Source of the DNA: Pirellula sp.
GTDB lineage: Bacteria > Planctomycetota > Planctomycetia > Pirellulales > PNKZ01
Assembly (NCBI GenBank): GCA_013822735.1
Contig: PNKZ01000024.1
Span: forward strand, 1-64,000
Length of the DNA stretch: 64,000 nt
Direction of reading: 5' to 3'
Below the pieces are notes generated by a model. It worked only from the letters and a program-made list of their open reading frames with translations, searched no databases and had not been told where the DNA came from. The position numbers and the translations under genes were made by a program. Shown here piece after piece: positions 59,412 through 62,838 of this stretch (position 1 is the first letter of the stretch; every line of letters begins with the position of its first letter).

Positions 59412-60623
59412 ATGCGCGCGGAAGTTGTTACGTCGGAATCCGCCTTCCTCGCGCTGCGCGACGATTGGAATCGCCTAGCTGCCGGCGATCCGTTAGCCAC
59501 GTGGGAATGGCGCCACGCATGGTGGCAATCGTGGAGCAATCGACGCCGGCTCGCAATCGGCGTCGTCCGCGACGGCGAACGCGTGGTCGCGATTTTGCCC
59601 GGGTTCACGGAGCTTCGCCCTTGGAGCGGTCGCACGCTGGCGTTGCTGGGCAACGGCAAGGCCTGCACCGACTATCAACGCGTGTTGCTCGACCGGGACT
59701 TAGTCGATCGAGAACGTTATGCGGCGATCGAACTTTTGCTCGATGAAATGTTACGGCGGGGCGGGGCCCTGCCGAATATCGACCTCTTCGAACTCGACGG
59801 CGTGAACGTATCCGAACCGTCGGTCGCGACGATCGTCGAATTGCTCGCACAACGAAAGTTCGCGGTCGATCACGAGCCGTTGGACTCGAGCTGGATCACC
59901 GACTTAAACGAAACCTGGGACGGCTTTGTCGCGGGAACGCCCCGACAACTGCGCCGCAAAATCCACAAAGCGATGCGACGAGCGGAAAGCCCGGACATCA
60001 GCTATCACGAGGCGGGCGATCCGGAAACCGTCGCCGCGATTTGGTCGGAGTTTGTGCGGCTCCACCAGGCCCGCTTTCGCGACCGTACCGACGACGGCGG
60101 CTGCTTCGTGGATTCGCGCTTCGAGCAGTTTCTCCGCGACGCGGCCATCGCGTTGGCGGCCAAGCAACAAGCCAAGATCGTGTGGTGTGAGCACCTTGGT
60201 CGGGCCATCTCGGCTCATCTGTATTTGCTGGGCCGCCGCACGGTCGCCATGTACCAATCGGGCTTCGATCCCGACTATCAACATTTGGAACCCGGCTACC
60301 TGCTCTACTCGCTCGCCATCCGCAGCCTGATCAATGCCGGCTACGCCCACTTCGACTTCTTGCGCGGGGACGAGACGTACAAATCGGGTTGGGCAGCGCG
60401 ACCCATTCCGCTCGCGCGCTTGGTGTGCGTCGCTCCGCGGGCCACATCGCGCATTCGGCATCGAACCCGTTGTTGGGCCCGTTCGCTCAAGCGAGTAGCC
60501 GTGCGAACGTGGAAGAGTCGTCGCGGTGAAGGCGCTGCGTCGCCGGCGGCCCCCGCTCCGATTGGTTCCGACGGCGTCGAACTCGTGCGCGAGCAGGACG
60601 CGAAAGAGACGGTGAACGTATGA
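59412..60623 (+). CDS. CelD/BcsL-type GNAT acyltransferase
   Basis: This 403-residue protein belongs to the FemAB-like GNAT group (Acetyltransf_6). Visible are FLALRDDWNRLAAGDPLATW, WEWRHAWWQSWSNRRRLAIG, and the C-terminal hallmark GYLLYSLAIRSLINAGYAHF followed by DFLRGDETYKSGW. These enzymes acylate or aminoacylate polysaccharide or peptidoglycan-like acceptors. The C-terminal 60 residues are flexible. Its stop overlaps the next GNAT start, so the two are coupled. The substrate is unknown. Confidence 0.85.
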   Translation: MRAEVVTSESAFLALRDDWNRLAAGDPLATWEWRHAWWQSWSNRRRLAIGVVRDGERVVAILPGFTELRPWSGRTLALLGNGKACTDYQRVLLDRDLVDRERYAAIELLLDEMLRRGGALPNIDLFELDGVNVSEPSVATIVELLAQRKFAVDHEPLDSSWITDLNETWDGFVAGTPRQLRRKIHKAMRRAESPDISYHEAGDPETVAAIWSEFVRLHQARFRDRTDDGGCFVDSRFEQFLRDAAIALAAKQQAKIVWCEHLGRAISAHLYLLGRRTVAMYQSGFDPDYQHLEPGYLLYSLAIRSLINAGYAHFDFLRGDETYKSGWAARPIPLARLVCVAPRATSRIRHRTRCWARSLKRVAVRTWKSRRGEGAASPAAPAPIGSDGVELVREQDAKETVNV

Positions 60624-61897
60624 CGCCCGCAGTTGCGCACCAAGAACCTGAATCGAAAGAACACGCCGCTGCGAGCGTTCCGAAGAAGTCGAAGCCGGCG
60701 GCCACGACTCCCCCACCACGTCAAGACGAGCCCGATCTTCCGCTACTGAAGTTCGAGACGCGGTTCGTCACTTCGCCGGAAGAAGCCGAATCGCTGATGC
60801 CGGCCTGGAAACGATTGGCGGAAACGGCGATCGAGGCCAATCCGTTCTACGAGCATTGGTCGCTGCTGCCGGCTTGGAAAACCTTGGCGCCGGAGCTGAG
60901 CCCGGAGCTTTTGGTGATCGAGGCCCCGAAGCGCGTCCACCCTACGGGCCCGAAAGTGCTTTGCGGCCTATTCCCGATCATTCGGCACAAACGTTTCTAC
61001 GGTCTCCCGGTCCGCTGTTGGGAACTATGGCGGCACGTGCATTGCTTTCTGTCGACCCCGCTGGTGCGCCGCGACTGCGCACGCGAAGTGATCGACTGCT
61101 TCTTTGAAACGGCGGCGACCGCGCCGCACGGCGCGGCGGTGGTGAGCGCGTCGATGCTGCCTGCCGAAGGCCCGCTGCATCAGTTGCTGGTCGACGCGAA
61201 CTTCGCCGCCGGTCGTAATCAATTCATTCGCGAACTTTCCGGCCGAGCCTTGTTTCGCAAAGCCGACGATGCGGAGACTTTTCTCAAGGCCTCGCTGTCG
61301 CGAAGCAAGCGCCAAGGCATGCAGCGCTCCGAGCGGCGTTTGGCGGAAAAGGGAAAGCTCGAGACACGCTGGTTTACCGCGAACGACGATCTCGCGCTGT
61401 GGACGCAAGACTTCCTGAAGCTCGAAGCCTCGGGCTGGAAAGGAGGCGAGCACACCGCTCTGGCTTGCAGCGCAGCCGGCGCTTACTTCTTCCGCACGAT
61501 GGTCAAAGAGGGAATGGCCGAAGGCCGGGTTCAACTCGGGCGGCTCGATTTCGACGGTCGCCCGATCGCCATAATCTGCAACCTCCTGGCACGCGACGGC
61601 GGCTACAGCTTCAAGATCGCCTATGACGAAGCGTTCGCTGATGACTCCCCCGGCCTGCTGTTGGAGCTCTCGCTCATCCGCGAGCTTCACGACCGGGGCA
61701 TTTCCTGGATGGATTCGTGCGCGGCGAGCGACCATCCGATGATCAATCCCCTTTGGCCGCAACGGTGCTTGCGACAATCCGTGGTCTTCGCCACCGGCCG
61801 GCGGGGCGGAGATTTGGCCGTGGCGCTGATGCCGCTCTTGCGGTGGGTGAAGAATTTGCGGAACCGGAAGCCACGGGTGAAGCCGCAAGCGGACTAG
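60620..61897 (+). CDS. second CelD/BcsL-type GNAT acyltransferase
   Basis: This 425-residue protein starts 4 bases inside the upstream GNAT gene. Residues 1-45 are Pro/Ala/Lys low complexity. The core has FVTSPEEAESLMPAWKRLAE, NPFYEHWSLLPAWKTL, LSRSKRQGMQRSERRLAEKG and a GGYSFKIAYDEAFADDSPGL segment, again the Acetyltransf_6 layout. It differs from its neighbour in sequence, so it is not a recent copy. The pair may modify two positions of one acceptor. Confidence 0.82.
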   Translation: MTPAVAHQEPESKEHAAASVPKKSKPAATTPPPRQDEPDLPLLKFETRFVTSPEEAESLMPAWKRLAETAIEANPFYEHWSLLPAWKTLAPELSPELLVIEAPKRVHPTGPKVLCGLFPIIRHKRFYGLPVRCWELWRHVHCFLSTPLVRRDCAREVIDCFFETAATAPHGAAVVSASMLPAEGPLHQLLVDANFAAGRNQFIRELSGRALFRKADDAETFLKASLSRSKRQGMQRSERRLAEKGKLETRWFTANDDLALWTQDFLKLEASGWKGGEHTALACSAAGAYFFRTMVKEGMAEGRVQLGRLDFDGRPIAIICNLLARDGGYSFKIAYDEAFADDSPGLLLELSLIRELHDRGISWMDSCAASDHPMINPLWPQRCLRQSVVFATGRRGGDLAVALMPLLRWVKNLRNRKPRVKPQAD

Positions 61898-61953
61898 CTT
61901 CCGCACTACTAGACAACGTTCATCTGAAGTTACGAGAGACAGGAGAGATTCCC

Positions 61954-62838
61954 ATGATACCTATGACGCAAACTAACACGAGCGCTTCGCTGCTCGATCG
62001 CCTCGACCAAGCAACGTTCGACGCCCGCTTCAATCGCCGTCCGTTCGTGATCGGTCATCATCTGGCCGACCATCCGCTCTTCGCGCTGCCGCGTCTGATC
62101 GAGCTGGCTCAGAAGCTGCCGCAGCGTAAGGTCGAATACAATTCGGGTGAGTTGCCGGTATCGCAAGACCCCACGAAGACGCCGCTCAACGGGCTTTCGA
62201 TCCCGGAAACCATCCAGCGGATCGAAGAATGCCGCTCCTGGATGGTGCTCAAGAACGTCGAGCTCGACGAAGAATATTCGGACCTGCTCAATAGCTGCTT
62301 GGCCGAAGTGCGGCAGTTTTCCGACCAGGTTTCGCCCGGCATGAAGCACCAAGCCGGCTTCATCTTCATTTCGTCCCCCGGCTCGGTGACCCCGTATCAC
62401 ATCGACCCGGAAAATAACTTCTTGCTGCAGATCCGCGGGCAGAAGTTCGTGCACATGTTCCCGCAAGACGATCGCGACATCCTCTCGGAAGAGAGCCTCG
62501 AAGCGTTCTTCACCGGCGGCCATCGCAATCTGCCGTTCGAAGATTGGTACAACGAACGGAGCGAGCAATTCGAGCTCAACCCCGGCGACGGACTTCACTT
62601 CCCGGTCGCCGCGCCGCATTGGGTGCAAAACGGTCCGGAGGTTTCCGTATCGTTCAGCATCACGTTCCAAACGAAAGACTCGGCCGACCGCAAGTCGCTC
62701 CATCGGCTGAATAAGCAAATGCGCCGCTGGGGTCTGAAGCCGTCGAACTTGGGTAAGTCCCCCTGGCGCGATCGCTGCAAGCTCGGGCTCGTCAACGGCA
62801 TCCGCGCGGCCAAGCGGGCCGTCGGCATGAAGGACTAA
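61954..62838 (+). CDS. JmjC/cupin-like 2OG-Fe(II) oxygenase-type protein
   Basis: This 294-residue protein has a cupin-like fold. The metal triad candidates are His149 and Asp151 in YHIDPENNFLLQI and His222 in APHWVQNGP. KFVHMFPQDDRDIL and FHFPVAAPHW-type strands are also typical of the Cupin_8/JmjC family. An AGGAGAG RBS lies seven bases before the ATG at 61954. It follows the GNAT pair by 56 bases and probably acts with them, perhaps hydroxylating a shared substrate. The actual reaction is unknown. Confidence 0.85.
   Translation: MIPMTQTNTSASLLDRLDQATFDARFNRRPFVIGHHLADHPLFALPRLIELAQKLPQRKVEYNSGELPVSQDPTKTPLNGLSIPETIQRIEECRSWMVLKNVELDEEYSDLLNSCLAEVRQFSDQVSPGMKHQAGFIFISSPGSVTPYHIDPENNFLLQIRGQKFVHMFPQDDRDILSEESLEAFFTGGHRNLPFEDWYNERSEQFELNPGDGLHFPVAAPHWVQNGPEVSVSFSITFQTKDSADRKSLHRLNKQMRRWGLKPSNLGKSPWRDRCKLGLVNGIRAAKRAVGMKD

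Follow-up and report, generated by a model that had tools for sequence, protein, structure and literature searches.

Work on the holdfast of Caulobacter crescentus (PMC5362036) names FemX as the nearest structurally characterised homologue of the protein HfsK and suggests that HfsK may acylate amines that the deacetylase HfsH has freed. For H. baltica, HfsK and its paralogues are reported to have made no contribution to holdfast binding under the conditions used (PMC8449245). Oxygenases dependent on 2-oxoglutarate (2OG), members of the JmjC superfamily included, have been predicted beside tRNA-synthetase-related genes for peptide synthesis (PMC2922099). Here we describe a locus of Pirellula sp. 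(Planctomycetota) in which transferase genes stand next to the gene of a JmjC-like protein. The window, meaning the whole stretch of DNA analysed, has 64,000 nucleotides (contig PNKZ01000024.1, positions 1 to 64,000), and the three genes, called A1 (59412..60623, 403 aa), A2 (60620..61897, 425 aa) and CUP (61954..62838, 294 aa), lie in a row on its forward strand. An earlier note on this DNA had seen in them two non-identical CelD-type acyltransferases and a JmjC-like oxygenase, with two of the genes overlapping, and had suggested a small modification pathway for a polysaccharide or peptide. The open reading frames (ORFs) are indeed present at the coordinates it gave, and the overlap is that of A1 and A2, where the stop codon of A1 lies over the start codon of A2 (ATGA, 60620..60623, 4 bp); this arrangement suggests translational coupling.

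The protein assignments of that note also held in Pfam searches. Both A1 and A2 belong to PF13480 (Acetyltransf_6, CelD/FemAB-like transferases), with 95.4 and 79.4 bits against a cut-off of 22, and comparison of the two family profiles with hhalign (probability 99.8, 360 columns) shows homology along most of the two proteins and a divergence to 16 % identity. CUP matches Cupin_8 (40.4 bits, cut-off 27.4) and JmjC_2 (26.0 bits, cut-off 22) and is probably an Fe(II)/2OG-dependent oxygenase.

Conservation of the A2-CUP pair

A2 and CUP almost certainly form a functional unit. We scanned 84,980 species genomes with a CUP alignment and obtained 75 loci, to which the window was added; the scan searched with two peptide patterns derived from 15 sequences, whose relatives it therefore favours. 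Hidden Markov models (HMMs) for CUP and A2 were based on 15 and 12 sequences, respectively, each of them from the phylum of the window, and genes of the relatives were taken as mechanical ORFs. A2 was found directly upstream of CUP on the same strand (ORF borders, gap below 300 bp with no lower bound) in 55 of the 58 loci with a CUP of at least 280 bits and in none of the 18 loci with a CUP below 280 bits, two of which (L109 and L114) lie at contig edges and cannot be judged. Overall, the two genes are linked in 55 of 76 loci, a set which includes near relatives. Counting by HMM envelopes (gap from -150 to 500 bp) gave 54 of 58 loci, and L110 was lost from this count although its A2 and CUP ORFs overlap by 4 bp; by ORF borders, a 4-bp overlap of A2 and CUP occurs in 10 of the 55 linked loci. 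The three misses above 280 bits are L089, which lies at a contig edge, and the divergent planctomycetes L126 and L124; in L126 an A1-type gene is located 1.7 kb away on the opposite strand. Some DNA is present twice among the loci (L037 and L064, L039 and L057, L040 and L109, L041 and L074, L042 and L073, L047 and L094, L051 and L126, L052 and L124), and of these only the copies numbered L057 and above entered the adjacency, A1 and envelope counts. L058, with a partial A2 of 134 bits, is among the 55 linked loci and outside the set of 54 loci in which A1-type genes were counted. In a divergent planctomycete family (L050:6817-9557), a CUP gene and a remote A2-like gene (89.6 bits) point away from each other across 450 bp instead of standing in tandem.

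The pair was also followed within the phylum. In the family of the window, CUP occurs in five of seven genomes and A2 in four, the fifth CUP being cut by a contig end. Among 392 genomes of the phylum, in each of which at most 6 and 4 candidates were scored, the same nine genomes hold a CUP of at least 295 bits and an A2 of at least 531 bits, the latter scores being high by construction, since these genes and their relatives went into the model. The informative part of this search is that outside the nine genomes no A2 exceeds 286 bits. The next-best A2 (G141, 285.7 bits) comes with no CUP match at E 1e-10, and the next-best CUP (190.6 bits, G389) with no A2 match at E 1e-20; two further genomes, G240 and G207, carry both genes at low scores.

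The 56 A2-linked rows of the CUP tree, the window included, are distributed over Planctomycetota (33), Gammaproteobacteria (7), Betaproteobacteria (2), Alphaproteobacteria (2), Myxococcota (4), Rokuibacteriota (2) and Acidobacteriota (2), with four rows lacking a label, among them the window and a genome of its genus; many of the carriers are metagenome bins, whose taxonomic labels can be wrong. Named carriers that are not bins include Thiothrix lacustris, Thiothrix fructosivorans (on plasmid pTfr446) and Planctomycetes bacterium Poly30. Three plasmid hits were obtained, all distant (30-35 % identity). Pairwise identities of A2 and CUP are correlated (Mantel r 0.72, n = 53, none of 2000 permutations as high), with CUP the more constant of the two (median identity 48 % vs 34 % for A2). 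On the quick CUP tree, from which L109 and L120 are omitted, the association with A2 needs four changes, the starred branches force only one, and long branches meet; on this tree the association may have had one origin or several.

A1 is an option rather than a part of the unit, because an A1-type gene lies within two genes of A2-CUP in only 16 of 54 loci (upstream of A2 in seven and downstream of CUP in nine; the L086 gene was included manually because of its score of 229 bits). The exact trio as a conserved unit is thereby ruled out. Of the small modification pathway of the earlier note, the conserved adjacency in several phyla and the co-divergence speak for the A2-CUP part, and the trio as such did not stand. 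The synteny check proposed in that note was run as well: the random neighbours in relatives that would have told against it were not observed for A2-CUP and were observed for most outer neighbours.

Residues W19, W33, W37, D315 and K324 are invariant in all 17 A1-type proteins, and at D315 and K324 the A2 profile has other residues according to the profile comparison. The A1 of the window aligns from residue 1 in three relatives. In Pfam its match to FemAB_like reaches 15.8 bits, below the cut-off of 27, and phmmer found no PDB chain at E 0.01. Membership in the XrtA/PEP-CTERM FemAB family was rejected (TIGR03019, 14.1 bits against a cut-off of 260.35). We do not claim an XrtA/exosortase system for the locus: TIGR03098, TIGR03108, TIGR03088, TIGR04063 and TIGR03019 match the neighbours or A1 only under their cut-offs. 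A quick tree places the A1-type genes in several clades, with four changes needed for the A1 label, many forks open and several long branches. The clade of the window's A1 groups with a paralogue in the same genome (L001; Shimodaira-Hasegawa-like approximate likelihood ratio test 98), and the A1-type gene of L126 groups with other paralogues, so that one orthologous group of A1-type genes is not supported by this tree. The A1 paralogue found elsewhere in the genome of the window at L159:8988-10220 has an O-antigen-ligase-like gene on one side and DUF58/VWA genes on the other, a context which is not decisive.

Predicted folds of A2 and CUP

The AlphaFold2 model of A2 (predicted local distance difference test, pLDDT, 92.7; predicted template modelling score, pTM, 0.88) is a double GNAT with the fold of the FemABX proteins. 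In the VIA comparison it is nearest to FemX (Z 20.7), Sbb17/Sba18 (20.2), FemA (19.9) and L-PGS/A-PGS/MprF (16.1-17.6), and these families, together with one uncharacterised Bacteroides protein, fill rows 1-23 (Z 20.7 to 16.1). The next row is a tandem GNAT of Mycobacterium (Z 15.4), and mycothiol synthase with coenzyme A (CoA) is at 14.8. The rows show near folds, and families outside the list may be near as well. Nine residues (R209, R236, E269, W273, K274, K332, G345, S366 and W379) are invariant in all 48 A2 sequences. At the level of sequence, neither a Pfam Fem match at E 0.01 nor, by phmmer, a PDB chain at E 0.01 was found for A2.

The start of CUP is at or near ATG 61954, 56 bp past the stop of A2, and a Shine-Dalgarno-like AGGAGA (61941..61946) can be read from the sequence 7 nt before it. 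GTG 61717, from which CUP would overlap A2, was ruled out as a start, since conservation of the protein sets in near ATG 61954. The AlphaFold2 model of CUP (pLDDT 94.4, pTM 0.91) has the double-stranded beta-helix of JmjC proteins, and its nearest folds in VIA are YcfD (Z 18.7), JMJD5 (18.1), NO66 (18.0), MINA53 (17.8), YxbC (17.2), TYW5 (16.2) and FIH (about 16). Foldseek gives E 3.3e-13 to 1vrb, a putative asparaginyl hydroxylase of B. subtilis. The motif H149-x-D151 together with H222 and K164 is invariant in all 54 sequences, and JMJD5 and FIH show weak sequence similarity (E about 1e-4) to CUP in the region of these residues; we take H149, D151 and H222 to be the metal ligands and K164 to be the 2OG lysine, as in FIH-type enzymes.

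Relatives of CUP without A2 were recorded in other surroundings. In L113 and L115 they stand beside non-ribosomal peptide synthetase/polyketide synthase (NRPS/PKS) genes according to Pfam, and in L117, L120 and L121 likewise by BLAST component only. A protein of about 270 aa (component c21, with no Pfam match in the one that was scanned) recurs in L115, L116, L117, L121 and L129. Two cyanobacteria and an acidobacterial bin (L123, L125 and L128, about 5.3-11.5 kb in each) have CUP relatives in a shared gene run of components c72-c75; in L125, the one scanned, the Pfam matches of this run include a D-Ala-D-Ala-ligase-like ATP-grasp protein and a methyltransferase, and CUP is followed there by a Caps_synth-like gene, the same component being found in L128. 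In a gammaproteobacterial bin (L113:9944-12503), two CUP-family genes lie near each other on opposite strands.

Neighbourhood and proposed function

To one side of the three genes, the window carries genes for proteins that Pfam identifies as N-formylglutamate-amidohydrolase (FGase)-like, TruB and FtsK, and to the other an HMGL-like synthase; FGase-like, TruB and FtsK recur together in L057 and L064, the two nearest loci with enough flank. Of 66 operon-like neighbours, 60 were scanned; the six omitted are two from the window, three from L057/L064 and one of more than 1100 aa. As distant controls, 70 genes were picked randomly out of 221 and 54 of them were scanned, the other 16 having been dropped by hand because they were ORFs cut by or close to a locus end or came from the near relative L064. 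The commonest family among the operon-like neighbours is the polysaccharide deacetylase PF01522, with 9 of 60 genes against at most 1 of 54 for the controls. These nine matches are the nine operon-like members of component c6, three of which were checked singly. Seven of the nine stand immediately before A2 (L063 and L066-L071, 7 of 54 loci); the window locus lacks one, and a single PF01522 gene is present elsewhere in the window's genome. The polysaccharide that the earlier note had named as a possible substrate thus finds some backing in these seven loci and none in the window's own flanks, which are not glycan genes. In L077 a single run holds CUP, an A1-type gene and two each of deacetylase, glycosyltransferase and A2 genes, and in L086 asparagine-synthase, acyl-CoA-ligase-like, NAD-synthase and methyltransferase genes precede the A1-type gene, A2 and CUP. 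In an ORF of L077 (9705-10745), half a family 4 glycosyltransferase is linked to a TatA-like end, which may be a real fusion or an artefact of assembly or frame.

We tentatively propose a two-step decoration, in which A2 would add an acyl or aminoacyl group to an amine of a glycan or its precursor and CUP would hydroxylate the attached group; the chain as a whole we hold to be possible, with somewhat less than an even chance. It is established that transferases of the Fem fold carry amino acids from tRNA over to amines and that most of the JmjC enzymes nearest to CUP in fold act as hydroxylases of amino-acid residues. From this chemistry and the deacetylase linkage we infer the order of the steps as well as the donor, the acceptor, the product and the role of A1. 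In some lineages the neighbouring polysaccharide deacetylase would expose a free amine on the glycan or precursor, to which A2 would attach the acyl group, most likely an aminoacyl from aminoacyl-tRNA, and CUP would then hydroxylate this group by means of Fe(II) and 2OG. Where present, A1 could be a second transferase acting on the same product or adding a second group. The proposal relies on the conserved pair, the gap in the VIA comparison and the deacetylase linkage. Its most novel version seems unlikely to us: a tRNA-dependent pathway of wide distribution would use a Fem-fold ligase to place an amino acid on an exopolysaccharide amine and a JmjC oxygenase dedicated to hydroxylating that residue, so that hydroxyaminoacylated surface glycans result, and no description of such a decoration was found in the literature searched.

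Several observations weigh against the two-step decoration. The fold of A2 does not set the donor. By E-value its top Foldseek match is 2wpw (E 4e-11), a tandem GNAT from clavulanic acid biosynthesis that binds acetyl-CoA, with a TM-score lower than those of FemX and Sbb17. The best curated family of A2 is that of the acyltransferase BspF (NF047385, residues 138-388), and its 114.6 bits against a cut-off of 775 led us to reject membership in this crotonyl transferase family. The A2 proteins are not uniformly basic (median isoelectric point 7.5, range 5.5-9.3, n = 48) and give no clear sign of the donor. The context of the nearest A2 paralogues, a sister clade without CUP (7 loci, neighbours of five scanned), was uninformative: HSP70, phage portal, fasciclin, aldehyde dehydrogenase, acyltransferase and other genes were found there, and nothing was shared. 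TYW5, to whose fold CUP is also similar, modifies a tRNA base. As for the glycan, the seven loci with an upstream deacetylase form two groups of the CUP tree and L077 a third, so the linkage represents about three lineages and not nine independent cases. Most loci, the window's included, show no glycan gene in the same run. There is also no enrichment of glycosyltransferases, which account for 3 of the 60 neighbours and, among the 54 controls, for two GT4 and two GT2 genes.

Two of the alternatives we consider unlikely to a similar degree. A2, and A1 with it, could N-acylate a deacetylated amino sugar from acyl-CoA, with CUP hydroxylating the acyl chain. The deacetylase linkage would suit this as well, PF13480 is annotated as GNAT, and the first Foldseek match of A2 binds acetyl-CoA; moreover, the acyl-CoA-ligase-like gene upstream in L086 reaches 477.6 bits with TIGR03098 (cut-off 592), and L076 has an upstream amino-acid adenylation domain (TIGR01733, 405 bits, cut-off 317). 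However, the nearest A2 folds by VIA are aminoacyl-tRNA transferases, and most of the nearest CUP folds belong to enzymes that hydroxylate amino-acid residues rather than acyl chains. The other, equally improbable, is a natural-product pathway, in which the module would make and hydroxylate a small diffusible aminoacyl or peptidyl metabolite and no polymer would be decorated. The NRPS/PKS genes beside CUP relatives without A2 point in this direction, as do Sbb17/Sba18, which share the fold of the A2 model and bind streptothrisamine; several GNAT-fold aminoacyl-tRNA transferases of natural-product pathways are listed in PMC12945691. Beside A2-CUP itself, however, the deacetylase and A1 are the only biosynthesis genes that recur, and the pair often stands alone.

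Protein modification is less likely still. A2 would acylate a protein side chain, comparable to lysine acyltransferases, and CUP would hydroxylate a protein residue in the manner of ribosomal oxygenases, to which its fold is nearest; the BspF match of A2, far below its cut-off, fits this too. Yet the neighbourhood contains no conserved target gene, and the patchy distribution within one family speaks against a universal ribosomal target. An aminoacyl-lipid pathway of the MprF or ornithine-lipid sort, with A2 aminoacylating a lipid head group and CUP hydroxylating it, would agree with the Z values of the MprF/L-PGS folds, but it is very improbable, as no lipid-gene linkage was noticed among the scanned neighbours and the deacetylase linkage would be left unexplained.

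Comparison with known systems

Whatever the substrate, two genes that remain together in several phyla amid changing flanks make a clear and testable unit of function, drawn from two families otherwise named only by superfamily. If the two-step decoration is true, a step that depends on oxygen would connect charged tRNA, a substrate of translation, with the chemistry of surface glycans, and bacterial JmjC enzymes would gain a substrate class beyond proteins and secondary metabolites. A full-text search of part of the literature returned no description of a PF13480-JmjC pair, and an earlier mention in surveys of dioxygenases is possible. The general idea has a precedent, since 2OG oxygenases are predicted beside tRNA-linked peptide systems in PMC2922099; the operons described there differ from ours in having enzymes like aminoacyl-tRNA synthetases and cyclodipeptide synthases, not the PF13480-JmjC pair.

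With the FemABX proteins and Sbb17, the A2 model shares the double-GNAT fold over 273-313 aligned residues at Z about 20, whereas identity is 8-13 %, the likeness is one of predicted fold only, and A2 is partnered with a JmjC oxygenase. CUP resembles YcfD, JMJD5, NO66/MINA53, FIH and YxbC in its fold (Z about 16-18.7) and in the kept HxD...H and lysine; its identity to them is 14-20 % in the listed alignments, and it differs from them in being kept beside a transferase gene. The nearest described analogue is HfsH/HfsK, the likeness being one of description: like the few A2-CUP loci that have a deacetylase, it combines such an enzyme with a tandem-GNAT transferase, and an acylation of the freed amines has been proposed for it. 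There, hfsK lies outside the hfs locus and the accessible account names no oxygenase partner, whereas the A2-CUP loci keep the oxygenase throughout and have the deacetylase in some cases only. Set against this analogue, the oxygenase step would be the new element.

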